Assembly (NCBI RefSeq): GCF_002994745.2
Contig: NC_037088.1
Span: 56,500,397 to 56,564,396 of the forward strand
Reading direction: 5' to 3'
Origin: Rosa chinensis
Lineage: Eukaryota > Streptophyta > Magnoliopsida > Rosales > Rosaceae
DNA length: 64,000 nucleotides
This document shows, in pieces, positions 3,001 to 61,096 of this stretch. Every line of letters begins with the position of its first letter. The stretch's first letter is position 1. Under the pieces are notes generated by a model. That model made no database searches. It was not told the origin of the DNA and was given only the letters and a program-made list of their open reading frames with translations. Both the position numbers and the translations under genes were made by a program.

Positions 3001-3313
3001 TCAGTTCATATGCATAGCAGACTTCTGGTTGACAAAATGTAGACAAAAACTGACTCCAGTGACTCTACTTGCCAGTTGCAACTAACATTTAATGACTGCC
3101 TTATTAAATTGATTAGACCAATAAGTTATAATTAAAACTTGGTCTAAAATATGCATCACTTACCAAGGATATGGAAGATGGATTAAATATTTTTACAAAA
3201 ATAGTGCCCAAAAGGACTGCAGTGAGGGGACCTGCTGCTCTCAGGAAACGCAAGCGTTTCCTTGTCTTTCCCTGAATGTATAGAATCAAAATGAGAAACA
3301 GAATTCTGGTATA

Positions 3314-33775: not shown

Positions 33776-34420
33776 GTGGATCCGTCACACTCTCTGAAAC
33801 AGTCAAATAAGAAAAGGAAGCAATTGAAACCCAGTGGCTTACTCCATTCTTCTTCTCCTCCTCCTTCTTCTTCTTCCCTCCTCTGCTTCGCTTCGTCTTC
33901 TTCTCTCTCTAAAACGCCTGAAGCTTTTCACAGTCGCAGCTCTGCTCTGGGTCTCGCACACTTAGGGTTTCTGGTGTCTCAATCTGTAAGTCATAAATCT
34001 AATCTCTTTCTAAGTTTTGCATCACGTTAAGAACCCTAGGACTGAAATTGCGTCGTTTTTTATTCAATTTCTTGTTAAAGATGACAAATTTATGCTTTAG
34101 CTGAAGATGGGTATGTTCCATTTTTATCATTTCCCATACCCAATATTGTTTGTACCGATTTTTTTAGTGCTTGTTGATTTGGTTTTACTGCAAATTTAAG
34201 AGCTTTTTGTTGTTTGGTAGTTTAAATTTTTTATTGTAGTTTTTGTTTCTGTGTCAGTGTGTTTGTAGCTGATGCTTGATCTGATACGGTTTTGATTTCT
34301 CACATTCTTGGTAATTGAAACCCAACTGTGTAATTGGAGCATAGAAAAGTGAGAAATGGAAATGAGATAGGGGTTTTTTTTCAGATAGCTGGGTTTTTGG
34401 AGTAAGAATTTCTGTTGGGA
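33776..34420 (+). other. Likely MKP1 5'UTR with an intron
   Basis: A CT-rich leader (33840-33985) ends at a good donor, ATCT|GTAAGT (GT at 33986-33987). A T-rich tract ending TTTTTTCAG (AG at 34383-34384) makes a plausible acceptor 36 bases before the start codon. This layout is common for plant genes, but transcript data would be needed to confirm it. Confidence 0.5.
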
Positions 34421-37400
34421 ATGGTGGATAGTGAGGATGCCTCTGCTAGTTCTCGGGCTCCGGTCCCGCTTTCCGGCTCCCGGAAAATGTTCTGGCGCTC
34501 GGCTTCGTGGTCTGCTTCGAGGACCGCGGCTCACAACCCTGAGACTGAGGAAAAGGACCTTGCAGATCCAAATGCGGCTGCAGGGAACAGTAATGGGCAG
34601 AGTCACCGTAGGTTTCCTGTTCCGTTGACCCCGCGGTCTCAGCAGAATAGCAAGGCTAGGTCTGGTTTGCCGCCCTTGCAATTGCCTATTGCTAGGCGTA
34701 GCTTGGATGAGTGGCCCAAGGCAGGTTCAGATGATATTGGTGAGTGGCCACAGCCTCCTACTCCGAGTGGGAGAGGTGGTGGGGAGAGGTTGAAACTTGA
34801 TTTGTCAGCCATTCAGAACAACCCGGCAAAGAATGGTGGGCTTGTGAGGAGGGATAAGATTGCTTTCTTTGACAAAGAGTGTTCGAAAGTGGCTCAACAC
34901 ATTTATCTTGGTGGGGATGCCGTTGCGAAGGACAGAGACATTCTTAAGCAGAATGGGATAACCCATGTTCTGAATTGCGTGGGTTTTGTTTGTCCTGAGT
35001 ATTTCAAGGCAGATTTTGTGTATAGAACTCTATGGTTGCAGGATAGTCCTACAGAGGATATTACTAGTATTCTATATGATGTTTTTGATTACTTTGAAGA
35101 TGTTAGGGAACAAGGTGGAAGGGTTTTTGTTCATTGTTGTCAAGGGGTGTCTCGGTCCACATCATTGGTGATTGCTTATCTTATGTGGAGAGAAGGACAA
35201 AGTTTTGATGATGCATTTCAGTATGTGAAAGCAGCTAGAGGTATTGCTGATCCAAATATGGGCTTTGCTTGTCAGTTATTACAGTGTCAGAAGAGAGTTC
35301 ATGCTTTCCCTCTTAGCCCAAGTTCACTATTGAGGATATACAGAATTGCCCCACATTCGCCATATGATCCTTTGCATCTCGTCCCCAAAATGCTGAATAA
35401 TCCCTCACCTTCTGCTCTGGATTCTAGAGGTGCTTTTATTGTTCATATACCTTCTGCAATCTATCTTTGGATTGGTAACAACTGTGAGCTTATCATGGAA
35501 AGGGATGCAAGAGGGGCTGTTTGTCAGATTGTTCGGTATGAGAGAGTGCAAGGCCCAATAACAATAATCAAGGAAGGGGAAGAGCCTGCTTACTTTTGGG
35601 ATGCTTTTTCAAACCTTTTACCCTTGATGGATAAATCTGGCAATGGAGTAGAGGTTGGGGAGTCAAAAGATAAGATTCGTCCAGGTGAAAGGAAGTCAGA
35701 CACATATAATATTGATTTTGAAATTTTCCAGAAAGCTATTATGGGAGGTTTTGTACCTCCATTTGCATCCTCGCAAAATGAACATGAAACTCATCTTCCT
35801 GCCAGAGAGAGCAGCTGGAGTGCACTCAGGCGTAAGTTTGCCTCAGGAAACATGAAGGAGTTTGTCGCAGCACCCCGGTTATCTCTCACCAGGGTCTATT
35901 CAGATTCAATGATGTTTCTTCAGTCTACTAAAAGTTCTATATCACCTTCAGTTGCACACTCTTCATCTTCATCGTCCTCTACTTCCTCACCTCCATATCT
36001 GTCACCAGATTCCATCTCTTCTGATTCAAGCACTTGTTCAAAGTACTTTTCAGAATCCTCTCTGGATTCTCCATCTGCAGCTTCCTGTTCCCTTCCGGTA
36101 TCATCAACATTGCCAAATTGTTCTGACATGTGTCTCCTCTCCCCTAGATCGTCTTATCAACCCATGTCTAACCAAGAAAAAGTTGTTTCCAATTTTAGTT
36201 CACAGGCCAGTTCTCGGTCAACCCCAATACCATCTAAAAAGTTATCATCTTCACTTGCAGAGCGTAGAGGTAGCTTGTCGAAGTCTCTCAAATTACCTGT
36301 GATGAGTTTGAATACTTCCTCGAAAATTCTTCCTAATGAAGAAGGTGGTGTAGGGATAAATGATAGTACTTGTTTTGTACATGGCAAGAACAATGTTGGC
36401 AATGTATTACAGTCAAAGGATGGTGTTGAAAATGGCGGGGAAGATTCAACACCACAATGCAACATAGTGCTGGGTAAGGCAGATCGTATTGACTCGTGCC
36501 AAAGGGAAGCTTCTCTTATCAAACATAGTGCTGAACCTTGGAGAAATTGCCTTCCTGGAGGAGCTGCAGAATCCTCCGCCTCAAAGAAGATGGGGGCAAG
36601 TTGTCCTGTGCAATCTAATTCTATGCAACCTTTTGTATGCCGGTGGCCCAGTTTAGAGAAGCTAGCAACATTTGGTGCAAGTGAACTAGATTCTAAAGCT
36701 GTGTTTGCTATTTTCTCACCAAATAGAGACTTAGGTAAAAGTGAAGGCAGGATTTTGTATCTATGGGTAGGAAGGTTTTTTGACAATGGTAATCTTCAGA
36801 TTCAATTAGAAAGTGACAAAAACAGAGCTGATATAGAAGAGATTGACTGGGACCAAGTTGGTTCTGATGTCCTCATCCAAACGGGTCTGCCAAAGGACAC
36901 AATCATTAAGGTATGGACTCTATAATTGAAATTTTACTTTTACCTTTTGCTCATTTCATCTTTACTTTTTAAGCTTGCACCTTTAGGGCTCAGTTGATGT
37001 GGGTTCTTGCAAACTATGAAGGGTTTGTAAACTGGGGGAGAGATTGTAGCACCATTTACTAGTGTCTATTTCTCAAAGGCATTCAGCTTTTGATTGTTAA
37101 GTGAGCTGTCAAGAGTTTTTCTATCGAGTTTATCACAGAGCTTGGGTATTTTTTCTATTGTTGAAGTTTTAAATGCTGTACGTAATTATTTTGTACAAAC
37201 CTCAACTTCGTTTAGCTCAATAATGTCTTTATAACGAGTGATTGAATCTGAGCTTGAAAGTTTATTGCACTAGAAAATCTGGTTCCTTTCTTTTCTCCTG
37301 AATGTTCCAGCATGGCCCACTTGCAGTTTTTAACATTTTCCCCATTGATTCTGTCCGTTTCATGCTAATGTGTTTTTTTGTCTGGATTTGATGCTAATGT

Positions 37401-41082: not shown

Positions 41083-41351
41083 AACAAGTCCAAACAGCAC
41101 CACACTATCAAAAGTATTTCTCCACAAAACTCGGACCGTACCTAGGGTTTTTTTTTTTCAAGATCTCCTAGCCTTCTCGTCCGACGGCGCTTATCGGTGG
41201 TGGTTCGCCATGCCGACTGGGCTACTGCCGGGCGGGTTTTGCAAGCTATGCCGGTAGTCTCATGAGTGCGGTGTGGCTCGAGGCTTTGTGCGGAATGGGT
41301 GATGATGGAGTCTGGGTTTTTCGGATTTCGGATTGTACAGGTGGTGCTTGT

Positions 41352-43621
41352 TGATAAGTGCATTTTAATGCGACGTTTTACTTGCTTTTCCCTACATTTC
41401 TTGCGTTATTTCCTTATTAAAACCCTGTTTAGGAAAGTTTTCATTCTTTGATTGGGAAAGTTCCTATTTGTAGAAAGTTTCTATTTTTATAGTTTCTATT
41501 TATCATTTTTAGTAAGTTTCCATTTTCGGTAGTTTCTATTTTTCAGTTTAGGAAAGTTTCTATTTTTCTTATTAGTTTCTATTTTCAGGACCTCCGAGCT
41601 AAAATATGGAAATGAACTCATAAATGGAAAGAGGAGCTTGCGAACACCAAGGGGAGCAAAGATGAAGGTACATTGGAGTAGAAAAATGGAAATGTACTAA
41701 AAGATCAATTTTACACATATTCCTACTCCGGCTAGGAGAAACCAAGCCAAGCAAAGAAGAAGGAGCGGCCGCCTGACCAAATGAACTTCAAATGAGTTGA
41801 AACCTTCCAGATCCATTCTAGACACCCAAAGGATCATTTCTTATGAAGAGTGCCAGAGAAAAATATGAGTGGAAGGCCTTCAAACAATCAACCCAATTTT
41901 CTACAGAAGCAAAACTGGAAAACTGGACCTGTAAGAGGTCCAGCAGCATTTCCGGCCCAACCACATGGCAATAAATTCTGAAATTTTACCACAGTAATCT
42001 ACACTCATGGTGGATAATTTCATATGAAGAAGTCGAAGGCTAAAATTAAGTTCTTAGTGGAGATAAAAATTGAAGGAATAAAGGGGCAGAAATTCACCTC
42101 CAAATCTGCTAACAACCTCTGTCAAACTTGAAGTGGAAAATCTTGAGGAGGAAAATCAAAGTTGCAAGGAAGTGGAAAATCTTGAGGAGGAAAATCAAAG
42201 TTGCAAGGAAGTGGAAAATCTTGAGGAGGAAAATCAATTCAAGTTGAACAAGTGATAAACAAGTGGGAAGATATTTTTTACAAATTTGTCTAACATATCT
42301 AGCCCTTCATTTATGTTCATCTCCACCCTCCATTCATCATTTTTTGGGCTATAAATACACTTCTCCTCTCACTCTCAAAATACCAATTCCTTCATCCATC
42401 TCATCTTCTTTATTTCTCCATTTCTTCTCCATTTTCCTTAGTCACCAATTCCTTCATCCATCTCATCTTCTTTATCTCTCCATTTCCTCTCCATTTTCCT
42501 TAGTCATCAATTCCTTCATCCATTCCATCTTCTTTGTCTCTCCATTTCCTTTCCATTTTCTCTCCATCCTCTAATGCATTCAACATTTCAAGCAAGGCCA
42601 AGGGAGAAGAAGAATTGCCGTGAGCATCATCCTCCATCACCATCCTTGAAGCTTGCTTTCGAGATTCAAGAGACCACATCCTCAATTCGTTCATCTCATC
42701 TCCATCTCACGGTGTAATCCGATTCTCCTTTGTAACCTTTGCTTTGATTTCGTTGGTTTTGTTCTAGTTGACATATGTGTTTGAATGAATATTAATTTCT
42801 GGAATTTTATGATTAATTGAGAATTTTCAGATTCATATTATTGTGATTCGAAGGTTGCTTATGTGGGTTTGTTTAATTAAATTTGCGTTATAGATAACTT
42901 TTGTATTTTAATCTTATGTGGTTGCAAACACTTAGGGTTTTGATATGAATGGTGCTAGGTTTAAGAACATGAAATCGACTTTTCGTTTTGTGTAAACTTG
43001 AATCAAAGTAGTAAAGGTTTTGTGCAAAGACCGAATTTAATTAAAGAGAATTGCAATTAGGTGGACTTTTCCATACTAAGTTGTACACTTGAGTTGATAG
43101 CCTTTCACTATGTGTAATGCGTTAAACATGACATGATTGACTAGCTTTCTAGGGTTTGATTGCATGTTTGATAGGATTAATCTAGGTGCTTGCGCTTAGG
43201 TTAATTAGCATTGAAAAGTAAAAAATGGGAATTCATTTGCTTTCGAATGTTTCACATGATCAACTCCTTTCTCATGACTTAGATGAACAATATTAGGGTT
43301 TGAATCAATTTTAATCATATGTTTCGGTTTTTGATCTTTGTTCTCTCACTCCATTTGTATTTTTATGTTTTTGCATTTTAATTATTTTGTTAACTTAGTT
43401 TTATTTTCGAAAATCCAAAAACAAAATCCTCTCTTTTTTCGTAAATAATGTTTATACTTGTGAATATATTTGTAAATATTATACTTTGTTTTAATTTTAA
43501 TTGTTTAATTGTTTAACAATGACAGATGTACCCTCAATCCCCGGAATAGAACGATCCATATTTGCTTATACTACTAACGATATTTCAGGGTTAAATTATG
43601 CGCTTGCTTTGAGCGACATCA
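41352..43621 (+). repeat. 5' LTR
   Basis: 2270 bp. Contains tandem GTTTCTATTTTT-type units (about 41460-41590), a 39-bp repeat in 2.7 copies (42130-42237), and about three copies of a roughly 60-bp CT-rich unit around CCAATTCCTTCATCCATCTC (42380-42565). Confidence 0.92.
42130..42237. repeat. 39-bp tandem repeat within the LTR
   Basis: Unit starting GAAGTGGAAAATCTTGAGGA, 2.7 copies, present in both LTRs (second set at about 49612-49719). Confidence 0.9.
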
Positions 43622-43626
43622 ATTTT

Positions 43627-43644
43627 TGGCGCCGTTGCCGGGGA
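43627..43644 (+). other. Primer-binding site (tRNA-Asp type)
   Basis: TGGCGCCGTTGCCGGGGA lies five bases inside the 5' LTR and is complementary to the 3' end of plant tRNA-Asp. It fixes the element's orientation as plus. Confidence 0.85.
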
Positions 43645-44410
43645 TTGAAAAATCACTTGCTAAATTGTGTCATTTATTGTATATATTTGTTGTATATAAA
43701 TTGTTTAAAACTTAGTTTAAATATTATTTTTATTATTGAACACGAATTTTAATTGTAGGTTGTAAATTGAGAGGAATATGTGAAGTCTCTTTTGTTAATA
43801 TTGGCCTAAACCCCTTACTGGTACCTAGCTCAGGTCCCTTAAGGTTGAGGGCGGCCTTTATTAACACTTGTTGAACTGTCTTCACACTTATGACCTTTCT
43901 CATCTTAGTAAGAAAGCCTATGTGAAATGGTGTCTAGGAAGGGGACAACGTTCATGACGGGTTTTTGAATCCAGAAGTGCTTGCAAATGGGCATAAACCA
44001 CAATGTGGGAGTAGCTCATGCCAAAATGGATTTTTCCTCTCGTGTTCGCCCTCCCCCACCTGGCCATTTCAGTAAGGTTGCCCAAACGATTTGAAAGGGA
44101 GTGTGTGTCTAGGCCGCACGTTCACTTGGGCCGCACGTTCACTTGATTTACCGCTTGGAATTTGATTCGATATCAATAATGTTTATAACAAAAGAAATAC
44201 TTGTGAATACTCTATACGTGTAAATTATTTTGTTGTTTCACACTTTAAACTTGTAAAAATACTTTTCACGTTTTAGACTCACTTGAGTACTTAACTTGTG
44301 TCTTATGTACAATATACTTGTTAATTATACTTGTAGTTTGTAATTAATAGTTATACTTATTTTTATTTTGTATTTCTTTGTTAATTATAGTTACTAACTT
44401 TATTTAATGT
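43645..44410 (+). other. Untranslated leader of the LTR element
   Basis: No ORF of note. Contains a short direct duplication GGCCGCACGTTCACTTG (about 44111-44144). This is where gag would normally start in an autonomous relative. Confidence 0.5.
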
Positions 44411-44652
44411 AGGTACCGTCTGGCTGCAAGACGTAAAATACAAGCGCTACTTGGGAGGCAACCCAATTCAGAATATAATCAGATTTGCTTTCTCTTTCCC
44501 TATTTCTTTTTATTTTTCAATTTTTCTCTATTGTTTTTATTTTAGGATTTGTTTTCGTAAATGTCTTCTATCTATGCTTACTTATTTCATTGCATGCTTT
44601 TAATTGATTACATTGAGGATAATGCAATATTTAAGTGTGGGGGAAGGGATTT
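44411..44652 (+). repeat. Internal module A of the LTR element
   Basis: Contains GCGCTACTTGGGAGGCAACC, later ACATTGAGGATAATGCA, and ends TAAGTGTGGGGGAAGG, which resembles the polypurine tract. The same series recurs at 46661-46902. Confidence 0.65.
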
Positions 44653-44714
44653 ATATTTTTGTCTTTCATTTTGAGTCCTATATATATTTTTGAGTCCTAT
44701 ATAAGTATATATAA

Positions 44715-44715
<1 letters not shown>

Positions 44716-44751
<36 letters not shown>
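44716..44751. repeat. (AAT)n microsatellite
   Basis: About 11 AAT units between module A and the 3' side of the antisense WUSCHEL-like ORF; followed by A-rich and (AAAT)n tracts at about 44799-44829. Confidence 0.9.
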
Positions 44752-44758
<7 letters not shown>

Positions 44759-44841
44759 TTGCATTCATTCAGTCTTATTAAATTCAGCTATTTACAAAAG
44801 AAAAAAAAAAAATAAATAAATAAATAAAATTATACACTATA

Positions 44842-45504
44842 CTAAGCCATGTCTGCATCTCCGTAGGAGTTGAGGCTGAGCTCAAGGGAAATGCGAGAGC
44901 CACCGCCATAGCCGCTACCTCCCTCGGAAGTAGTCTTCATGTTGCCAAAGATGTCCTCACCATGCATGGGGAATAGTGGAAGGGTTTCAATCTCCTGGTG
45001 ATATTTTCCTCGTTGTTCCATGATCGATCCATCAACACCATAGCCGACACGTAACCCAAAATTTAGATCAATGGATCTGTCAGTACTAGTAGAACCAGTG
45101 GAACCAAAGTTCAGATCAATGGACCTACCATCATCAGTAGAACTAGTGGATCCAAAATTGAGATCGAGAGATCCACCAACCCGAACGTTCCGAAATTCCC
45201 TCAACTTCTGCCTCTCACAAGCCTTGAGGTTCTGGAACCAAAAGAAGACGTTCTTGTTCTCGATCTGCCCATACGGTTTCAGATGGAGACAGATCCCTTG
45301 AATCTGCTCTGGAGTTGGGTTCTTAAGCGCCCTGTCGTAGTAAAGCTCCTGGAGGATTCTTAGTTGATCTGGTGTGGGAGTCCACCGGTTATTGGTCGGC
45401 CTGATAGGCGTGTTGGCACTACTCCCGGCTGCTTGGATGCTTCCTCCCTCCTCGGTTGGTTGCTGGGTTTGTAACTCCATTAGTTGCAGAGTTCGTGGTT
45501 CCAT
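44842..45504 (-). CDS. WUSCHEL-like homeobox protein, intronless, inside the LTR retrotransposon
   Basis: An intact 220-residue frame. WUS-type homeodomain at about residues 38-102 (NRWTPTPDQLRILQELYY, then PYGQIENKNVFFWFQNLKAC). The long WOX-specific loop and helix 3 WFQN are present, but the usual NHKARERQ reads NLKACERQ. Three exact-period 16-residue units each carry (L/I)DLNFG (residues 112-150). The WUS box TLPLFPMH is at 174-181 and an EAR-type LELSLN at 207-212. These C-terminal motifs define the WUS clade, whose members specify stem cells and act as nuclear repressors. WUS-clade genes normally have introns, whereas this copy has none, which suggests capture of a spliced RNA; no poly(A) trace was found. 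Expression is unknown. Confidence 0.85.
   Translation of the reverse strand: MEPRTLQLMELQTQQPTEEGGSIQAAGSSANTPIRPTNNRWTPTPDQLRILQELYYDRALKNPTPEQIQGICLHLKPYGQIENKNVFFWFQNLKACERQKLREFRNVRVGGSLDLNFGSTSSTDDGRSIDLNFGSTGSTSTDRSIDLNFGLRVGYGVDGSIMEQRGKYHQEIETLPLFPMHGEDIFGNMKTTSEGGSGYGGGSRISLELSLNSYGDADMA
45055..45171 (-). repeat. 48-bp in-frame repeat within the WUSCHEL-like ORF
   Basis: Two full units and a partial third, each coding for S(L/I)DLNFG plus a Ser/Thr/Asp-rich spacer. The period is exactly 16 codons, so the frame is kept. Confidence 0.85.
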
Positions 45505-45960
45505 GTTGATGAAGAAAGGATTTGAGTTTCGAAAGAAAGGCTGAAGGGTTGAGAGAGAAAGGCTGGAACTCGGAAGAATTTTCTTTTGGAGTGAACAGTC
45601 GCTCCCTCAGAATGCACCTATTTATAGAACGAGTGAGCAGATCTCCACCGTTGGATGGACGATCTCTGAGATTAAATCTACGCGTTGGATTAAAGTCACC
45701 CAAAAACACGGAAAAGCTGTTGACGCGTGGAGGACACGTGGGGGAGTCAAACGAATCTCGAGGATCCGTGACAGACAAGCTACAGCCGAAAGCAGGTTTA
45801 ATTGCCGTGAATCAAGGAAAAGAAAGGACGCGTGGGGGAATCAAACGAATCTCGAGGATCCGTGACAGACAAGCTATAGCAGAAAGCATGCCATAAATCC
45901 AGGAAAAGAAAGGAATATTTACACGTGGGGGAGCTTCTTGGGCCGTGAACTGTCATAACT
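45505..45960 (-). promoter_or_regulatory. Apparent promoter of the WUSCHEL-like ORF
   Basis: On the minus strand TATAAATA (45619-45626) lies about 115 bp upstream of the ATG, a normal spacing for a plant TATA box and short leader. Further upstream a segment of about 62 bp (CGTGGGGGA, then TCAAACGAATCTCGAGGATC) occurs twice (45734-45795 and 45829-45889). It is bordered by CACGTG-type and ACGCGT motifs, with another ACACGTGGGGGA at about 45921. ACGT-core motifs of this kind bind bZIP/bHLH factors in general. Function here is inferred. Confidence 0.55.
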
Positions 45961-46111
45961 CTTCTCCTTCCCGGAGAAGCTTTGTTAAAACCGTGTGCCT
46001 GTTGAGATTTCTACCCTATTTTGTGCTTTACATATACATCCTTTTTTTGTCTCCTCCAGATTTTACTAAGGTTTGTCTAAACGTGCAGTTTCAAATTCCT
46101 TCTACTTCCTC

Positions 46112-46642
46112 ATGGCTCGAACCAAGGTTACCCCTCGCAGGGGCGTCAATCAACGCCGTGTTCTCTCTTTGGAAGAAGAAGGTCGTCAAGCGGCCACTAG
46201 AGCTGGGCTTACTCGTCCATGGGACCATCGTCCTATCCATGAGCGTACCCGCAGTCCCCCTCCTCTGCCTCGTCGCTCTCCCAGACTGCATCCCGGAGAG
46301 TCTTCTTCCTCACCAGCTGCTCGTGCTCCTCGCCCTATGGCCACCCTGGAAAGCTTGTCGGATTCGATTGATGATTTGCGTTCCTCTCTCCGCGATGGTA
46401 TTATGGTGACAGACTGGAGAGTCAATTGCATGATCGATTACATCTCTGAGATGAACTGCTCTTTGATCCGCTGTCACACTGCAATAAACAAGCTTGCTCA
46501 GGAAGTCAATAACTTGCAGAGTTATCCTCCTGGGTTTCCTCGCAAGGACGCTACTGCATCACAACATGAGGACCCGCCTCCGAAGGCTGAAACCAGCAAG
46601 AGGGCTGCCACTCGCCCGCATACCGCTCCTCCAAAGGAGTAA
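46112..46642 (+). CDS. Sense ORF of the LTR element, unknown function
   Basis: 176 residues from the ATG at 46112 (MARTKVTPRRGVNQRRVLSL); the frame extends 13 codons further upstream to another possible start. The N-terminal half is Arg/Pro/Ser-rich (RTRSPPPLPRRSPRLHPGES). Then comes a predicted helical part (LESLSDSIDDLRSSLRDGI, then RVNCMIDYISEMNCSLIRCH and INKLAQEVNNLQ) that could form a short coiled coil, and a charged Pro-rich tail. No CCHC knuckle, protease or polymerase motif. It could be a diverged gag-like or accessory protein. It is sense to the element and is followed at once by module B. Confidence 0.55.
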   Translation: MARTKVTPRRGVNQRRVLSLEEEGRQAATRAGLTRPWDHRPIHERTRSPPPLPRRSPRLHPGESSSSPAARAPRPMATLESLSDSIDDLRSSLRDGIMVTDWRVNCMIDYISEMNCSLIRCHTAINKLAQEVNNLQSYPPGFPRKDATASQHEDPPPKAETSKRAATRPHTAPPKE

Positions 46643-46660
46643 ATGGAGGTACAAGTCTAG

Positions 46661-46902
46661 GCTGAAAGACTTTAAACATTAAGCGCTGCATGGGAGGCAA
46701 CCCATTTCAACTGTAGCTGTGGAGGAGACATCAAACGCAGATTTGCTTTCTTGAACTCTTCCTTCTATTTTATTTTCATGAATTTTAAGTTGTTTTAGGT
46801 TTCGTTGTGTTAACTTTTTCTTCTATGCTTGATTTATGCTTTGCATGATTTATATTTGTTTATACATTGAGGACAATGCATGAATTAAGTATGGGGGAAT
46901 GA
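46661..46902 (+). repeat. Internal module B of the LTR element
   Basis: Shares with module A the blocks AGCGCT...GGGAGGCAACCCA, CAGATTTGCTTTCT, ACATTGAGGA(T/C)AATGCA and AAGT(G/A)TGGGGGAA in the same order. It directly follows the sense ORF's stop codon. Confidence 0.65.
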
Positions 46903-48818
46903 TTATTGCTTTATTGTGTTTTTAGTAGTTAGTATATAAAAAAAAAAAAATGAATGAAAAATAGTTGATGTTGGATTGTGTTTTTATTGTGTTTTTAATT
47001 GATGTTGTGATACACTAAGGTATATTGGATTAAACATAGTCTTGAAAAAGGGTAGCTGTTTCAGTCCCATTGCACATCGAGACTCCCTGTTTCCTTACCT
47101 AAGTGTTGAAATTAAATTAATTTAAAAAAAAAAAAAAATTTGGTTACTTTTGTTTTTGTTTTTGAGTCTTAGAATGCCCTTTCAACTGTCTAGGATGATT
47201 CTATATCTCTGAAATCATGATTAAAAGAGGATCACAAAATTGAGATAATTTTTAAAATTGTATTCTTTGGTTAATTGAGATATATGAAAAATGCATGCAT
47301 GTGTAGTGGATATGGATTTCGTAACCTTGGTACAGAATATGAGCATGTTAGGATGAGTTTTGATTCATAAAAGCTCATGTGAGATATTTGAGCCATGTCC
47401 CTTTTTCTTGGAGTGATAAATGAAAAACATATTCTTAATTTCTTGGCGATGTTTTGATGATCTCATTATTCTTTCATCTTGATTGATTGCTCGCCATAGA
47501 TTAAGTTTAATGGACTAGAGAATGCTAGAATTCACTCTTGTGCTTGTTGAAACGTTATATCAATACATGGCCCTGATTCTGGAAATGATAGAGGCACCCT
47601 AGGAATTACCACCATTGCCATATAAACTTGTGTCCCTATTTGTGCCCGTCGTGGGACCCCCCTAGATAAGCCCCTTTGAGCCTACATTAAGCCTTTTCAT
47701 TCATCACCCTTAAAACCCTTAACCATGAAACTTAGTATAGTTACAACCCTACCCTTTGTTCTAAGAACTTAGTGGAGCTATCTTTTGAGACATACTACGT
47801 GGGTTTAGTGCTAAAGATGAAAATTGAGAAGAGGTGAAAGTTCAAGTGTGGGGGTAGACTTGTCCATAAAGAAAAAAATATGTGAAAGCCGTGAAAAATG
47901 AAAAGAAAAAATTGTGTACGGCTAGAAAAGAAAAGAAAGAAAAATGTTTATGGATTTTAGTCCCCCATACTTAGTGATTTTGGAGTTTACTTTGAACTGA
48001 AGGCCCACTACAGAAAAATTTGGCCTTTGTCCATTCCACTATAGTTCTAGGGAAGTTTACAATGAAGATTTGGCCCAACATGAAGACATTAGGACCTTTT
48101 ATGTAACCTCTAGGGAAAGTGACGTTTTTGCAATGCCTTGGTGGATTTCTTGAGGTCTCTACATCTACATGTGCTCTGCTAGGTTTTTAGGACACTTTGA
48201 TAAATCCTTACCTTTCAATTCTTGAAACCTTGAGCCTTAGCCCCACTACAACCCTTGATAAGACCTTCTTGATCCTTAAGATGGGACAGCCTTTGATTTG
48301 TGGAGATGAGTTACAAGAGTTGAACCTATGGCTTGGGTCCATCCGTGCAAGTAGTTGATATCCTTCATGAGATCTTTTCAAAAAAAAATTATATTCACAA
48401 AGTGCTTTTCGTTTCTTATATATGTGAGCTATTTGATTGCCTCAAAATATTTTCTCTCACATATAATTGAGTGATTATAAGATTTTAAGCATTGTCTTGA
48501 ATTCTGAGAGAAGAAAGAGTGGATATACCTTGTGAGGATATGAATCATACTTGTTCGAAGCATGCTTAGCAGAAACCATCACCATTGTCACAACCAAGTC
48601 CTACTTGTGTATGTGTGGATTATATGTTTTAATTAACTCTTGAATATCTACATATTGATTCTTGGTTGAGTGCTCTAATCTTGATGTTGTGAAAGTAGGG
48701 GATTTCTGAGACAAAAAGTTGAAGGGCAATAGAGTCATTGTTTTTGTAGAGTCTTTAATTTTCGTTGAGTGTTAGTGTGTGTCTTAGTGTGATTTTGCTA
48801 AGGGACTAGCAAAAGCTA
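46903..48818 (+). other. 3' non-coding interior of the LTR element
   Basis: 1.9 kb with no ORF of note. Another polypurine-like AAGTGTGGGGGTAG sits at about 47842. It corresponds in position to the pol/env region of autonomous Gypsy elements, but no coding similarity was seen. Confidence 0.5.
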
Positions 48819-48832
48819 AGTGTGGGGGAATT
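48819..48832 (+). other. Polypurine tract
   Basis: AAGTGTGGGGGAAT-type purine run immediately before the TGATAGG start of the 3' LTR; the expected primer for plus-strand DNA synthesis. Confidence 0.75.
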
Positions 48833-51098
48833 TGATAGGAGCATTTTAATGCGACGTTTTACTTGCTTTTCCCTACATTTCTTGCGTTATTTCCTTATTA
48901 AAACCATGTTTAGGAAAGTTTTCATTCTTTGATTGGGAAACTTCCTATTTGTAGAAAGTTTCTATTTTTATAGTTTCTATTTATCATTTTTAGTAAGTTT
49001 CCATTTTCGGTAGTTTCTATTTTTCAGTTTAGGAAAGTTTCTATTTTTCTTATTAGTTTCTATTTTCAGGACCTCCGAGCTAAAATATGGAAATGAACTC
49101 ATAAATGGAAAGAGGAGCTTGCGAACACCAAGGGGAGCAAAGATGAAGGTACATTGGAGTAGAAAAATGGAAATGTACTAAAAGATCAATTTTACACATA
49201 TTCCTACTCCGGCTAGGAGAAACCAAGCCCAGCAAAGAAGAAGGAGCGGCCGCCTGACCAAATGAACTTCAAATGAGTTGAAACATTCCAGATCCATTCT
49301 AGACACCCAAAGGATCATTTCTTATGAAGAGTGCCAGAGAAAAATATGAGTGGAAGACCTTCAAACAATCAGCCCAATTTTTTACAGAAGCAAAACTGGA
49401 AAACTGGACCTGTAAGAGGTCCAGCAGCATTTCCGGCCCAACCACATGGCAATAAATTCTGAAATTTTACCACAGTAATCTACACTCATGGTGGATAATT
49501 TCATATGAAGAAGTCGAAGGCTAAAATTAAGTTCTTAGTGGAGATAAAAATTGAAGGAATAAAGGGGCAGAAATTCACCTCCAAATCTGCTAACAACCTT
49601 TGTCAAACTTGAAGTGGAAAATCTTGAGGAGGAAAATCAAAGTTGCAAGGAAGTGGAAAATCTTGAGGAGGAAAATCAAAGTTGCAAGCAAGTGGAAAAT
49701 CTTGAGGAGGAAAATCAATTCAAGTTGAACAAGTGATAAACAAGTGGGAAGATATTTTTTACAAATTTGTCTAACATATCTAGCCCTTCATTTATGTTCA
49801 TCTCCACCCTCCATTCATCATTTTTTGGGCTATAAATACCTCCTCTCACTCTCAAAATACCAATTCCTTCATCCATCTCATCTTCTTTATCTCTCCATTT
49901 CCTCTCCATTTTCCTTAGTCACCAATTCCTTCATCCATCTCATCTTCTTTATCTCTCCATTTCCTCTCCATTTTCCTTAGTCACCAATTCCTTCATCCAT
50001 TCCATCTTCTTTGTCTCTCCATTTCCTTTCCATTTTCTCTCCATCCTCTAATGCATTCAACATTTCAAGCAAGGCCAAGGGAGAAGAAGAATTGCCGTGA
50101 GGATCATCCTCCATCACCATCCTTGAAGCTTGCTTTCGAGATTCAAGAGACCACATCCTCAATTCGTTCATCTCATCTCCATCTCACGGTGTAATCCGAT
50201 TCTCCTTTGTAACCTTTGCTTTGATTTCGTTGGTTTTGTTCTAGTTGACATATGTGTTTGAATGAATATTAATTTCTGGAATTTTATGATTAATTGAGAA
50301 TTTTCAGATTCATATTATTGTGATTCGAAAGTTGCTTATGTGGGTTTGTTTAATTAAATTTGCGTTATAGATAACTTTTGTATTTTAATCTTATGTGGTT
50401 GCAAACACTTAGGGTTTTGATATGAATGGTGCTAGGCTTAAGAACATGAAATTGACTTTTCGTTTTGTGTAAACTTGAATCAAAGTAGTAAAGGTTTTGT
50501 GCAAAGACCGAATTTAATTAAAGAGAATTGCAATTAGGTGGACTTTTCCATACTAAGTTGTACACTTGAGTTGATAGCCTTTCACTATGTGTAATGCGTT
50601 AAACATGACATGATTGACTAGCTTTCTAGGGTTTGATTGCATGTTTGATAGGATTAATCTAGGTGCTTTCGCTTAGGTTAATTAGCATTGAAAAGTAAAA
50701 AATGGGAATTCATTTGCTTTCGAATGTTTCACATGATCAACTCCTTTCTCATGACTTAGATGAACAATATTAGGGTTTGAATCAATTTTAATCATATGTT
50801 TCGGTTTTTGATCTTTGTTCTCTCACTCCATTTGTATTTTTATGTTTTTGCATTTTAATTATTTTGTTAACTTAGTTTTATTTTCGAAAATCCAAAAACA
50901 AAATCCTCCCTTTTTTCGTAAATAATGTTTATACTTGTGAATATATTTGTAAATATTATACTTTGTTTTAATTTTAATTGTTTAATTGTTTAACAATGAC
51001 AGGTGTACCCTCAATCCCCGGAATAGAACGATCCCTATTTGCTTATACTACTAACGATATTTCAGGGTTAAATTATGCGCTTGCTTTGAGCGACATCA
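48833..51098 (+). repeat. 3' LTR
   Basis: 2266 bp, nearly identical to 41352-43621. The main difference is a 4-bp deletion near 49840 relative to the left copy. Confidence 0.92.
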
Positions 51099-51888
51099 CT
51101 TGTCGACGGCTTCCATGATCTATGGGGTGGGCATCTTCGGCAGGGAACCTCTTGGACCTGTGACGGCGTGGCCATGGATGTTTTCTGGCAGATTGGTGGG
51201 GCGGCCGGGCTTTGGTGGTCTGGGATGATCGCTAGGGCAACGTGGCTATGGGGAATCTGCTCGGAATGTGGTGGCAGCGTTTAGGCGGTGTTTCTGCGCG
51301 GTTCAGTGGGGGAGGTCGCTGCCGTCGTGGGTCGGGCAGCGTAGTCGATGGCTGGAGGTGGGAGGTAGTGGCAGGCTCGGGTCATCCTTTGGCTGCTGGG
51401 CCTTGTGCTGGGCCTATTCTCTTGGGACTGCTCTCTATGGGCTGGGGTGTTTTGCCCTCCGCCCATCCTATGTTTTTTAGTTTATCTAATTACAATAAGG
51501 TTCCATTTTCAGGGACAATCTACCCACCTTTGTGCATCTAGTTTTAGTATTTGGTCTTGGTCTTGTCAACTTAATTCTCAGTGTCTCTAGTTGTACATCA
51601 ATTGAGGTCTCTAGGCGACTAGCTTTACTGGTTATGAGTTAGATTGGGCAGGCCGGATCTTTCTAGCACCTCCAGCGTAGTACCAAAGGGGGATCCTGCC
51701 ATGTCTAGGTATATTTGATTGTACAATGAGTAAGTTTATTTCTGTGTACCACTGTGGATACTACCACTATCTTCTTGCCTGTCTAGATGTCAACGGAAGG
51801 GTATGTAACGGCCTATTCTGGCTTTTGATGAATATATATTCGCCCACCGGCTCTTTTTATAAAAAAAAAAAAAACAAGCCCAAACAGC

Positions 51889-53213: not shown

Positions 53214-54137
53214 AGATTATCTGATAAGAGTGAGCCACTCAAAGATCCAGGGCAATATAGGCGGTTAGTTGGAAGGTTGATATACCTCACAATTTCAAGG
53301 CAGGATATTACGTACTCTGTTTATATATTGAGCAGGTTTATGCACCAACCTCGAAAGGCTCATTGGGAGGCAGCTTTACGGGTTGTGCGTTATTTGAAAT
53401 TTGCTCCTGGGCAAGGCTTATTCTTCTCCTCAACAAGTGATCTGCGGCTGCGAGCATTCTGTGACTCAGATTGGGCAGGATGCCCACTTACGAGAAGGTC
53501 TACTACAGGGTACTGTGTGTTCTTAGGCCCTTCTTTGATTTCATGGCGGTCGAAGCGCCAGAAAACAGTCTCTCCGAAGCAGAGTATCGTGCAATGACAG
53601 AAGCTTGTTGTGAATTGACATGGCTTCGCTATTTACTCAAAGACTTGGGGGTTTTGCATCAAGAAACTGCATTGCTATATTGTGACAATAAGGCTGCATT
53701 ACACATCGCATCAAATCCAGTGTTTCATGAACGTACAAGGCATATAGAAATGGATTGTCATTATATCAGGGATAAGATTCAAGATGGTTCGGTGGAGACA
53801 AGGTTTGTGAGTTCTGCAAATCAACTAGCTGACATTTTGACCAAAGCTCTTAGCAAGGAGATCTTCATGCCTATGATTCACAAGTTGGGAGTGCAAGACA
53901 TCCACTCTCCAACTTGAGGGGGAGTGTTAGAAAGTATAGCAGAATATGTTAGAATAGCTGTCATATATCATTATGCATCCTTTTGTATCATTACACTTCC
54001 TTTATCTAGGACAGCTCTCCTTACTTTCCTCCTTGTTTTATGGAGACCTTTTCACTGTAATTGCTGTACATATTGCACACGGCTGAATAGAAGAAATCAT
54101 TCCAGCAAATTCTCTTTTCCACTTATTCTCTTTCACA
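53214..54137 (+). mobile_element. Truncated Ty1-copia fragment: late RT, RNase H and 3' LTR
   Basis: Encodes the end of the polyprotein: [98 protein letters not shown] and [13 protein letters not shown]. There is a frameshift near 53570, where the motif before AEYRAM is shortened. It stops at a codon followed by the tract TTGAGGGGGAG and an LTR at 53925-54137 (TGTTAGAAAG to CTCTTTCACA). The 5' two-thirds are missing. Confidence 0.85.
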
Positions 54138-54556: not shown

Positions 54557-55677
54557 ATGGCAACCACCAGCACCCCCACCACCAATGTTACTTTGAAGCT
54601 CTTGATTGATACAAAGGGCCACAAAGTTCTGTATGCTGAATCAGGCAAGGAATTTGTGGACTTTCTTTTCACCATTATGTCTTTACCCGTCGGCACTGTC
54701 ATTAGGCTCCTCAGCAAGGATAGCATGGTTGGTAGCTTAGGCAAGCTTTACGATAGTATCGAAAACATTGGTGACATTTACATGCTACCAGATTGTAACA
54801 AAGATACTTTGCTCAAACCAAAAGCGGTTATAGGCAGTGGGGATGCCTCTCTTTTGTTAACCAATGATGAGTCAGTGGAGGAAAAAAAGCTTTTCATGTG
54901 TGTGAACTACCACCGGTATGTGGCTGATGACCCTAGAGCCATATGTCCACAGTGTAGAAACCATCTCTCCACCAAAGTGCCTTATGTTGCTCCACAGGCT
55001 ACTACTGCTGGATCTTCTGGGGGTGGTCATGGATATGTGAAAGATGTTGTGACATACATGATTATGGATAATTTGGAGGTGAAGCCTATGTCTACCATAT
55101 CTTGTATAACTATGCTCAACAAGTTCAATGTTAAGGAGGTTGGTTCCCTTGAAGAGAAGGTGGTTCATCTAGGCATGGATGAGGTATGAATCCCAATATT
55201 TCCCTCATACTGTCTGTCTTTCAAAATTAACTGTGTAACATGTTCTTCATAATTCAAATAGCTTGTGCCTGCTAAGTTCTTTTCCAACTGTTTTGAGAGG
55301 TCAACAACTTCTGATACAATTGTGATTCTGATTACTGAACGTTGAATCTCCGTGTATTTAAATATTGCTTTCGAGTTTCGATTTTGTGTTCTTGAAATAG
55401 ATTCACAGTGTGGAAGAGGTGATAAGTTAACGTTTAATGTTATTTTTACATTTGTGATCCCTCAAGTAACGTTATCTTCAATTATATAACTTCATCAATC
55501 AACTATAAACAGGTGTTCTCTCACTGGTATCAATTCAATTTGGCACAACTATACAACTGTTATAAACGTGCAATGATCACTTTTTCTTTCCATCCTTAGG
55601 GTTTGAAACTGTTGAAGGCATCATTGGAGTCAAATTCTGTTCTCACCAATGTTTTCCTTGGGACGAAAGAAGCATAA
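54557..55677 (+). CDS. DUF674 family protein, copy A (intact)
   Basis: Two exons, 54557-55183 and 55600-55677, give 234 residues. The N-terminal half carries the family signature VTLKLLIDTKGHKVLYAESG, EFVDFLFTIMSLPVGTVIRL and MVGSLGKLYDSIENIGDIYM. A Cys/His-containing middle follows (CVNYHRYVADDPRAICPQC), then GYVKDVVTYMIMDNLEVKPM. Exon 2 supplies GLKLLKASLESNSVLTNVFL. DUF674 is a plant family of unknown function that often occurs in clusters; the CPxC and nearby Cys/His suggest, but do not prove, metal binding. The shared two-exon layout with copy C supports the model. Confidence 0.88.
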
Positions 55678-58287: not shown

Positions 58288-61096
58288 ATGGAAACCCCCA
58301 ACTCTAAAACCCTCACCGTGAAGCTCCTCGTCGACAAAAGAAGCCAGAAGGTTTTGTTCGCCGAAGCCGGCAAGGACTTCGTGGACTTTCTCTTCGCTCT
58401 TTTATCTTTCCCCGTCGGCACTCTGGTCCGGCTTCTCTCCAAAAACGGCATGGTCGGAAGCCTAGGCAAACTCTACGAGAGCTTCGAAAATCTCAACGAC
58501 ATGTATATGCAACCCAATCTCAACAGAGAAATCCTCCTCAAACCCAAAGAACCAGCCGGTGTTCCTAATAACCTAGGCTTGTTGACCAACGTGGAATCTC
58601 CAACCATCTATCACTGTTCAAGAAGAGGCTATTCTGATAATCACCAATATGTTTCCGACGACCCTAAAGCTACATGCCCGTCGTGCCCGTGCAAAATGAG
58701 TGCCAAGGCGAGTTATGTGTCTCCAGCCGGTGTTACAAAGACAGAAGAAGGGTTTGTGAAAGGGGTTGTTACATATATTGTAACCGATGATTTAGAGGTG
58801 AAACCTAATGTTACCATTGCCAGTATCCTTCAGCTGGAAAGGTTCAATGTCAAGTGTATTTGTGACCTTGAAGAGAAGGTCGTCAATGTAGGCATGGATG
58901 AGGTACGTATTTCTTCTCATATTGGATATTTTTCTTTTTCAACTTCTCTTCGGCCATACTTAGTATTTTCAATCATCAAATAGTTTTTATCTCAATGGAT
59001 TAGTGGTTAATCATGTGATGATTATATATGGTTTAGGGTGTGGTATATATATTTGTAATGATTGAATAAGTATTTGGATGAACCCCCTCCTTGATATTGC
59101 CCAAAAAAAAAAAGAGTACCTGGTACTTTAACCATATCAAAATTTTACCGTAGGGAGTAACCGTTATATATACAGTTATACACCCAATGCATAATACACA
59201 TTGAGAATACTATACGTAAATGTGATTGTACATTTCTTAGGATCACTCGAGCTCTTAGATAGTTAGGTAGACCCGCCTGGTTGTTCACTTCAATTTGATC
59301 CTAAGATCAATCATTCATTTATTTTTTTTAAGCAATCTTATAGATTATCACATGCAAACTAAATCAATTTGAATACCATCATATACTGATCTACTCATTT
59401 CACTACATCAAACAAATACACAATCTTGATAAAAATCAAGACTGTAACGTGACTACAAAAATCTCTTGTTTGATTGACCTTTAGTAAATATGATATTTAA
59501 ATTATGAATTTCTAGTCATCATCATCCCTACTTAACTTAACTGTAATAGTTAAATAAATTATATATTTATATACAGCAATGGCATATGTAGTATAGGACT
59601 GACGTACAGCGAATTAGCTTGATCGCTATATCTTAAGTTCAGCCCCCCCACCACACACCCCCCCCCCAATGTGGGTTTGATATACAATATTAGCGTCAAT
59701 ACAACAGCTAACCTCACGTACTTAGCTTTATATTTCACAATCTAAAATTATCTTACGAGAATTTGTGAGAATTTTAGTATTAAACTAGTTTTGATATTTT
59801 ATTCTTAATAATTGGAAATCAGCACCTCTACTCATTCTCCATCAATCTATTCTCCATAATTCATCTTCCTCTATACTCCATTCCAAGTCAGCTAGGATTC
59901 ATACCCTGAATTCTCGGACAAGTTAGTTTTGTTATCTTCATTTGTGATTGTATTGTACTTTTCTCATATAATGTTCTCCTTGATTAGGGATTTTTTTGTT
60001 TACAAAGTACACTAATTACCGATGTCATCCGCGGCTTTCCATTTGCTTGAAGAAATCTAATACAGATGTTCTTTTTTTGAATAGGAATTGATTACATTAG
60101 TAATCAAGCCATGAAAACAAGCCAGAGTCTAACATAACTTACATAAGAAATCCCGAGACAAACCGGGTAACCTATCTAAGCCACAACTAAACTCATTAAA
60201 GTCTAAAGGGACGCTCGCTGAACAGCAAGCCTAATCTATGCAAGAATAATCTCGCTCTCCGAGGAAAAAATATTCATCTAGTCTAATCTACCAAGCACGC
60301 AACTGTGGTACAAATAACAACTAAAAACATCTTAGAAAAGCTTATAGAAATTACCCCTACTTCAAAAGGCTTGAGTCCAGAATGTCTAAAAGCTTTGAGG
60401 ACTTACAACAGCGCGAGTCCCTTCCCCGTAGGGTTGGAACCAGCACCATATGCAGTCTCCTCTGTAGCCGACAACCTTAGCATCAGGTTGCTCCTCGGGC
60501 TCTTCTTGAGAGTTTGCAGCATATAGCCCCCATTTTCATATTTGGACCAAATAGGCCCAGTCCCTGCCTTCAGCCCAATCCTTGCGAACCAGAAATGTTC
60601 TATCTGTATGAGAAAACAAAAACAAAAAATAAATAAATGAAATATGACAATGCTAGATATTGTACTGCGAACCAGATGCTATGATTTTCACATTAGACAT
60701 TGGCAGGAGACCATATGATCTTAGCAAATGTTTTTGTTTTTCCTCTTCTCTTTCTAATCCCCTTTCGACACTGTATTTAATACCACATCATGGTGTATAG
60801 ATGTGATGTGGATCATGAAAATGTGAGAAATTTTCAAATATTGTCAGTCTTATGCGCTATGCGTTTAATTACCAAGCAAGATACAAGGTGTATATATGCT
60901 CTAGTTTTCGTAGTGAAGCTATTTTGATGCAAGGGCCTTGCCATTTTTTTTTCAGATGAATGATATTCTTTTCCCTCTCTTTTCATTCAAATTTCAGGGT
61001 GTGAAGTTGCTTAAGGAATCCTTGCAGTCAAAGTCAGTTCTAACCAATGTGTTTCTGAGAGGAATGACTATATCAGATCTAAAACCAGTACTTTAA
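58288..61096 (+). CDS. DUF674 family protein, copy C (intact)
   Basis: Two exons, 58288-58902 and 60998-61096, give 237 residues. Exon 1 has LTVKLLVDKRSQKVLFAEAG, DFVDFLFALLSFPVGTLVRL, MVGSLGKLYESFENLNDMYM, the Cys-rich YVSDDPKATCPSCPCKM and GFVKGVVTYIVTDDLEVKP. It ends GMDEV at a good donor (GAG|GTACGT). Exon 2 gives GVKLLKESLQSKSVLTNVFL and ends DLKPVL. The 2.1-kb intron is much longer than that of copy A and holds a likely retroposon fragment. The Cys pattern differs slightly from copy A (CPSCPC). Function unknown. Confidence 0.85.
60071..60510 (-). mobile_element. Possible retroposon 3' end in copy C intron
   Basis: Begins with a short T run, then about 430 bp unlike the surrounding intron (more GC, no DUF674 similarity), in the style of an inverted retroposon 3' end like that at 11678. 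No target duplication identified. Confidence 0.3.

Follow-up and report, generated by a model that had tools for sequence, protein, structure and literature searches.

Antisense, intronless WUSCHEL as inherited cargo of a long terminal repeat retrotransposon family in rose

How does a plant stem-cell regulator come to lie between the long terminal repeats (LTRs) of a retrotransposon, and does it serve the element that carries it? The question is raised by a 64,000-nucleotide stretch of the Rosa chinensis genome (515,083,735 bp, 53 contigs), C1:56500397-56564396, here called the window, in which an element at positions 41352-51098 encloses an open reading frame (ORF) resembling WUSCHEL (WUS). 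A preliminary description, made from the letters alone, had proposed that a retrotransposon captured a WUS-like gene here and might carry it through the genome. The structure, the family and the origin of the WUS-carrying element are now established. As a whole, we think it rather probable that this is a gag-pol-less two-LTR element of a large rose family, that an antisense, intronless copy of the rose WUS gene (RcWUS) is its inherited cargo, and that the encoded protein is likely an accessory transcription regulator.

The two LTRs (41352..43621 and 48833..51098, forward strand), delimited by self-comparison and by their alignment, are each 2.27 kb long and about 99% identical, begin with TGATA and end with CATCA. 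The alignment has 2244 matches, 23 mismatches and 22 gap columns, one mismatch and most of the gap columns lying just beyond the LTR ends; with 23 of 2267 aligned sites differing (13 transitions and 10 transversions), the Kimura two-parameter distance is 0.0102. At substitution rates of 1.3e-8 or 7e-9 per site per year, the insertion would be about 0.4-0.7 million years old. The identical 5-mer CTTGT stands immediately outside both LTRs as a target-site duplication (TSD; 41347..41351 and 51099..51103), and a primer binding site (TGGCGCCGTTGCCGGGGATTG, 43627..43647, forward strand), presumably of the Athila/Tat type, and a polypurine tract (AGTGTGGGGGAATT, 48819..48832, forward strand) can be read from the sequence. 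The element thus has the near-identical LTR pair, primer binding site, polypurine tract and TSD that mark an LTR retrotransposon. No gag-pol-like ORF lies between the LTRs: interior ORFs are all of 220 amino acids or fewer, and Pfam, run on the two main ones, matched only a homeodomain in the antisense ORF and no family above cut-off in the sense ORF. Because its interior is without gag and pol, the element is not an autonomous Ty3/gypsy element.

The antisense ORF (44842..45504, reverse strand; 220 amino acids, intronless), recognized from the ORF list, a structure search, Pfam and a protein search, shows these features of the WUS clade: a WOX-type homeodomain (45202..45390, reverse strand; Pfam PF00046, 3.9e-9; best solved relative, the WUSCHEL homeodomain, 1.1e-22), a WUS box TLPLFPMH (44962..44985, reverse strand) and an EAR-type motif LELSLN (44869..44886, reverse strand). 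This ORF with its three domains and motifs, and the matched LTRs, CTTGT duplication, primer binding site and polypurine tract around it, had all been named in the preliminary description, and sequence and alignment bear them out. Among 70 mobile ORFs collected for the codon tests below, the WUS box is exact in 57 and fits a looser pattern in 66, LELSL is retained in 66, and N90 and the W and F next to it are invariant in all 70. In the linker, three DLNFG-containing repeats (45055..45177, reverse strand) stand out in the alignment to RcWUS, which is without them. Of the base-reading residues, the window copy retains R38 and N90; its codon 96 (45217..45219, reverse strand), aligned with Arg94 of Arabidopsis WUS in helix 3, is Cys, a change private to this copy, as Arg is found in 66 of the 70 copies and Cys in none of the other 69.

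Is the window copy one of many? A protein search of the host genome gave 713 first-look candidates, of which 150 were scored, and 151 matches, of which 150 were listed; the latter lie on nine contigs (C2, 84; C3, 22; C1, 17; C7, 13; C4, 9; C6, 2; C5, 1; and two small contigs), which excludes an assembly join. A WUS-box 26-mer occurs, with up to three mismatches, at 479 genomic places (reversed control, 0), so the mobile WUS copy has indeed spread through the genome, as had been suspected. An LTR-start 26-mer occurs at 3194 places (control, 0), and the LTR family therefore exceeds its WUS-bearing part. At all 30 best-scoring loci, element sequence flanks the ORF on both sides and LTR sequence lies on its 3′ side, with internal gaps in a few (L014, L019, L028). 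Among 100 listed exact LTR starts there are 16 same-strand pairs 4.5-9 kb apart, at least six of which bracket a listed WUS ORF, always in antisense and never in sense orientation; the homeobox ORF thus belongs to the LTR family only in part. Perfect 5-bp TSDs were found at all five further two-LTR WUS copies (CCTGT, in a copy whose 3′ LTR end has diverged, TATAT, GGTAC, GGCGG and CCCGC), so that, with the window, six of six show a clean LTR-to-LTR inclusion.

These hallmarks bear on the notion that WUS was amplified as a set of host genes by whole-genome, tandem or segmental duplication, with the LTRs as incidental neighbours. Duan et al. (2024; PMC11405225), who in the available text describe 381 rose WOX genes, 364 of them in rose-only clades I-V and 226 on chromosome 2, hypothesised genome duplication, and the 84 listed hits on C2 might fit it; the same text, however, reports no collinear genes within rose and calls for further evidence on the expansion. 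The copies found here are intronless, have the LTR, leader and upstream region in common, and have TSDs differing between places. Whole-genome and tandem duplication are ruled out by the TSDs and the dispersed contexts, and the notion as a whole is practically out of the question.

The 150 listed young copies are regionally confined: those on C1 lie mostly beyond 55 Mb, those on C2 at 26-88 Mb, all 22 on C3 in the first 16.4 of 49.7 Mb and all 13 on C7 in the first 18.6 of 70.3 Mb. Matches to Fragaria WUS, mostly older copies, are spread over all seven chromosomes. The 'Old Blush' rose has been described as an interspecific hybrid, and the element may mark segments of one hybrid parent. One WUS-bearing copy, L086 (C2:40015450-40025449), is split by an opposite-oriented LTR sequence of the same family, apparently a nested insertion.

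From which gene does the cargo derive? RcWUS (L035, C2:11710600-11714600) has two coding introns with GT-AG borders (TCAAG/GTAATC...TTTTTAG/GAGTT and TTTAGG/GTAAGC...AACCAG/GATTGT). In L043, a full-length, older mobile copy, both introns are gone exactly at their borders, and alignment shows L032, L033, L034 and L044 to be without these two stretches as well; the window subfamily has lost the region of both junctions, and intron loss there is judged from these relatives. Upstream of the ATG, L042, L044, L043, L032 and L034 remain homologous to RcWUS for at least 144-221 bp, and in the mobile copies the homology stops short of the WUS stop codon. There, L032, L043 and L034 have a common foreign 3′ flank ending in GCTTA(G/A)TATAGTG; the window ORF terminates in this same flank end, GCTTAGTATAGTG (which differs by one change in L034). 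Intron loss, the end of homology and the common foreign flank argue that a spliced, 3′-truncated cDNA was captured, most simply once, and the search for a donor thus leads to the mRNA of RcWUS. A LINE-type retrocopy with polyA was considered as one possible capture route; the cDNA is cut short at its end, and none of L032, L034, L043 and the window has a polyA run at the end of the flank. An upstream gap of 338 bp in L032 and L043 (RcWUS -559 to -222), considered as a third intron, has borders that are not GT-AG, and it may be a deletion.

The same origin is suggested by a tree of 42 proteins and 199 columns, with WUS-type outgroups only and with three European Nucleotide Archive (ENA) proteins labelled as part of the R. 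chinensis set. In it, the mobile copies make up one clade (ultrafast bootstrap 100) with RcWUS as its sister, all Rosa sequences group at 99 (both values recomputed as bipartitions), a value of 84 belongs to a split inside the mobile copies, and the window cargo groups with Rosaceae WUS proteins. Sequences of R. rugosa, known here as proteins only, are interleaved with those of R. chinensis in the mobile clade, for which the simplest reading is one capture in an ancestor of Rosa. The proposed capture of a WUS gene by a retrotransposon is real, but it would be ancestral in Rosa and not the work of this young copy. Among the 120 of 198 protein matches listed, 65 are from R. chinensis or R. rugosa (counted by hand), and WUS proteins of Fragaria, Argentina, Prunus and Malus also appear; a search of viral contigs found no relative. 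Three close relatives, P0010, P0038 and P0062, come from short ENA contigs (1138-3015 bp), which might be transcripts.

A relative with gag and pol is found in the pieces L091, L044 and L092, which hold Retrotrans_gag, RVT_1, RVT_3/RNase H, Integrase_H2C2, an antisense WUS ORF and an antisense plant mobile domain ORF. In L044, a pol frame split over several ORFs (RVT_1, 1.4e-15; RVT_3, 3.5e-21; Integrase_H2C2, 9.5e-9) is followed by an antisense WUS ORF of 265 amino acids with further antisense ORFs, coiled-coil-like by eye; gag (4.6e-12) lies upstream and the plant mobile domain ORF (2.7e-18) downstream. The upstream stretch of this locus matches the window over 395 bp of LTR at 81.5% and 367 bp of leader at 89%. 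Gene order and Pfam matches would fit a Ty3 pol with an antisense ORF after it, although no 3′ LTR was found and the window copy is without reverse transcriptase, and the window element is likely a gag-pol-less derivative or recombinant of this gag-pol-bearing lineage.

Such an arrangement recalls the Tat/Retand elements, which, in the available text of two studies, have an antisense gene, aORF-3R, between pol and the 3′ LTR (Grande gene23, RIRE2, Retand, PvRetro13; PMC7264820, PMC11963269); the position of the L044 WUS ORF after pol and the antisense orientation of the window ORF are both alike. The cargo is different. Where those antisense ORFs have known domains, TRP28 predominates, followed by Smc and a small number of others; the rose family has WUS, and Tat/Retand antisense ORFs are said to have no clear similarity to other proteins (PMC7264820), whereas the rose cargo is a traceable host developmental regulator. 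An antisense TRP28 domain is reported for 97% of Tat/Retand clusters (PMC11963269); TRP28 (PF04195) was found in none of four scanned non-WUS antisense ORFs of the rose locus, one of which is the plant mobile domain ORF, with L044:5877-6512 left out of the scan.

Other members have exchanged the cargo. All that L085, complete and with GTCAC at both sides, retains of WUS is 27 bp from the 3′ end, fused to a gag-like sequence, and because of this residue it derives from a WUS-bearing form; it is apparently a recombinant between the WUS form and a gag form of the same LTR family. In L110, with an LTR spacing of 7574 bp, a gag of 437 amino acids (Retrotrans_gag, 6.3e-22) replaces the WUS cargo. 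From these two loci, WUS is the cargo of a part of the family and is replaceable by recombination.

Is the WUS ORF maintained by selection? In-frame stops are absent from 24 of the 30 best copies. A fairer sample is given by the exact WUS-box matches listed for C1, 28 in total, 17 outside the 150 scored hits and 11 within; 14 of the former were full-length with a homeodomain and nine of the latter stop-free, that is, 23 of 28. The 70 mobile ORFs for the codon tests comprised the 30 best, 20 of 40 mid-ranking, 18 of 20 older (two of fewer than 130 codons were dropped), L042 and L044. Codon maximum likelihood gave a nonsynonymous to synonymous ratio (omega) of 0.615 on internal and 0.539 on terminal branches, both rejecting 1 (twice the log-likelihood difference, 2dlnL, 15.6 and 35.9). 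By region, omega on internal/terminal branches was 0.58/0.39 in the homeodomain (2dlnL 25.4 for two parameters), 0.72/0.48 in the linker (16.0) and 0.44/0.66 in the C-terminus (16.4), the N-terminus being unconstrained (0.89/0.69; 2.0). Event counts in 84 ORFs, tested against neutral placement preserving mutation type and CpG context, gave ratios of 0.63 on internal (none of 2000 simulations as low) and 0.72 on terminal branches (P 0.001), 0.61 for the homeodomain on internal branches (P 0.0065) and 0.98 for the N-terminus (P 0.53). For 23 C1 copies, 14 picked solely by the WUS-box 26-mer and nine from the score-ranked list, internal omega was 0.61 (P 0.034; homeodomain 0.47, P 0.040), and terminal branches were indistinguishable from 1 (0.78, P 0.28; homeodomain 1.43, P 0.82). 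The 30 best copies had a pooled pairwise pN/pS of 0.39 and event-count ratios of 0.51 (internal) and 0.71 (terminal). Taken together, an omega of about 0.6 indicates purifying selection on the WUS ORF and is not proof of need; the constraint is read as moderate because ranking by protein score lowers omega.

How would the ORF be expressed, and what could its protein bind? A candidate antisense promoter, TATAAATAG, lies 122 nt upstream of the WUS ATG (45618..45626, reverse strand), and 27 of 30 copies have the same motif no more than 260 bp upstream of their ATG. The tandem site TGAATGAA, which according to the available text of PMC7203112 was tested for WUS, is found five times in the element (42782, 44764, 46951, 47696 and 50259). 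It is in excess in the interior (3 against 0.48 expected, P 0.010).

With moderate confidence, we favour an accessory regulatory role of the WUS-like protein for the element, with passenger cargo as the main rival. A spliced WUS mRNA would have been reverse transcribed with truncation of its 3′ end, and, in an ancestor of Rosa, the cDNA would have become part of a Tat/Retand-type element, behind its pol. The cargo would then have moved into a gag-pol-less form, which would borrow gag and pol from its relatives. Transcription of the ORF would start at a TATA-type antisense promoter of its own. In WUS proteins, the homeodomain binds TGAA and the WUS box and EAR motif recruit TOPLESS-type corepressors; the cargo protein may likewise bind TGAA-type sites and recruit such corepressors, and so tune transcription of the element or the host in meristem cells, the source lineage of the plant germline. 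Since WUS acts in cells that give rise to the germline, it is testable whether the element gains from controlling stem-cell transcription. The boldest version, in which the lineage stole the master regulator of host stem cells and keeps a working WUSCHEL as its own gene, acting in germline-founding meristem cells, so that the genome would hold hundreds of selfish WUSCHELs, seems to us rather doubtful.

Alternatively, a WUS retrocopy may simply ride a successful LTR family without benefit to the element, its ORFs being intact since the insertions are young. We take this passenger cargo as a real possibility, if not as our expectation. It agrees with the LTR divergence of about 1% in the window element, the near-neutral N-terminus and the WUS-less members, L085 and L110 among them. 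On the other hand, homeodomain residues, WUS box and EAR motif have mostly survived in the divergent subfamilies, most tests put internal-branch omega below 1, and the ORF persists at the gag-pol-bearing locus as well as in the gag-pol-less form.

A number of points weigh against an accessory role. Ten of the 16 exact-match LTR pairs are without a listed WUS (the WUS lists being incomplete), one of the ten carrying gag in its stead and another being a recombinant, and the LTR family may not need WUS; no 3′ LTR of the gag-pol-bearing locus was found in L092. As to selection, most tested copies were ranked by protein score, which biases omega downwards, and short-ORF copies had been removed beforehand (two of 20 older, three of 17 on C1). 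An omega of about 0.6 is moderate, the terminal branches are not clearly more relaxed (0.54 by maximum likelihood, 0.72 by whole-set event counts), the C-terminus is not significantly constrained by event counts (0.76, P 0.077), and the high intactness of the ORF may reflect only young age. TGAATGAA is not enriched in the LTR (P 0.365) and is mildly enriched in the rest of the window (11 against 6.3 expected, P 0.033). R94 of WUS reads the G of TGAA, and R94K compromises binding (Sloan et al., 2020; PMC7203112, in the available text); since Cys replaces this Arg in the window copy, its own protein is predicted to be impaired. Finally, 359 of the 364 rose-only WOX genes were almost silent during rooting according to the available text of Duan et al. 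(2024; PMC11405225), a near-absence of expression that also agrees with passenger cargo. The other five reached counts of more than 10 in at least three rooting stages, which would suit a co-option by the host, in which some copies would now be working WOX genes in rose development; we consider such co-option very unlikely.

What is known of comparable systems? Transduced host genes occur in plant LTR elements such as maize Bs1, and the likeness is a spliced host mRNA inside an LTR element; according to the available text of PMC7264820, such genes mostly lie in sense orientation and number no more than a few copies, often one, whereas the rose WUS is antisense, in hundreds of copies and constrained. 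Orchid Ty3/Gypsy elements with an m6A demethylase domain (PMC9289625, available text) are likewise plant Ty3 elements with a host-type functional domain, but the protein and the plant group are others and it is no transcription factor. In rose itself, the WOX clades I-V of Duan et al. (PMC11405225, available text) resemble the element cargo in C-terminal motifs, excess on chromosome 2 and high numbers confined to Rosa, and the clade V motifs (SIMEQRG...TLPLFPMHGEDILGNMKTTSEGG and SHISLELSLNSYRDADMA) closely match the C-terminus of the window ORF. They were presented as genes of unexplained expansion, and 'transpos' occurs 0 times in the main text of that paper. Judging from motifs, species range and chromosome distribution, most of the 364 rose-only genes are likely element cargo. 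The rose genome paper (PMC6786968) describes, in its available text, an abundant Gypsy Tat-like family with an ORF after pol, as here; that ORF was called a class II transposase domain, and the words WUS, WOX and homeobox are absent from the main text as available. We found no title or abstract opening describing WUS inside a retrotransposon, in a search mostly outside subscription papers and preprints.

The published puzzle of 381 rose WOX genes without collinear pairs would thus likely be one of retrotransposition rather than genome duplication, and it is a warning that mobile-element cargo may stand behind hundreds of annotated 'WOX genes'. The family makes it tractable to study a master regulator of development that has become a transposon gene, and it raises the testable question of whether a pool of WUS-like repressors reaches the meristems of Rosa.

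A few further features of the window remain to be described. Two direct repeats found by self-comparison (44406..44645 and 46642..46899, forward strand; the first 69% identical to the second) bracket the cargo, with WUS and the sense ORF between them; both repeats contain a TGGGAGGCAACCCA stretch as well as a purine tract, and they may be recombination points for cargo exchange. The sense ORF (46112..46642, forward strand; 176 amino acids) is free of stop or break in 28 of 30 copies and has six database matches, two of them from R. chinensis. A direct repeat pair of 64 nt with 94-nt spacing (45731..45888) lies upstream of the WUS ORF. Among the neighbours of the element, 34415-36925 is a dual-specificity phosphatase with an MPK1-type gelsolin domain, 54557-55189 is a DUF674 gene, 58288-58983 is a similar-looking neighbour, and a fragment at 53277-53917 resembles, by eye, a copia RNase H region.

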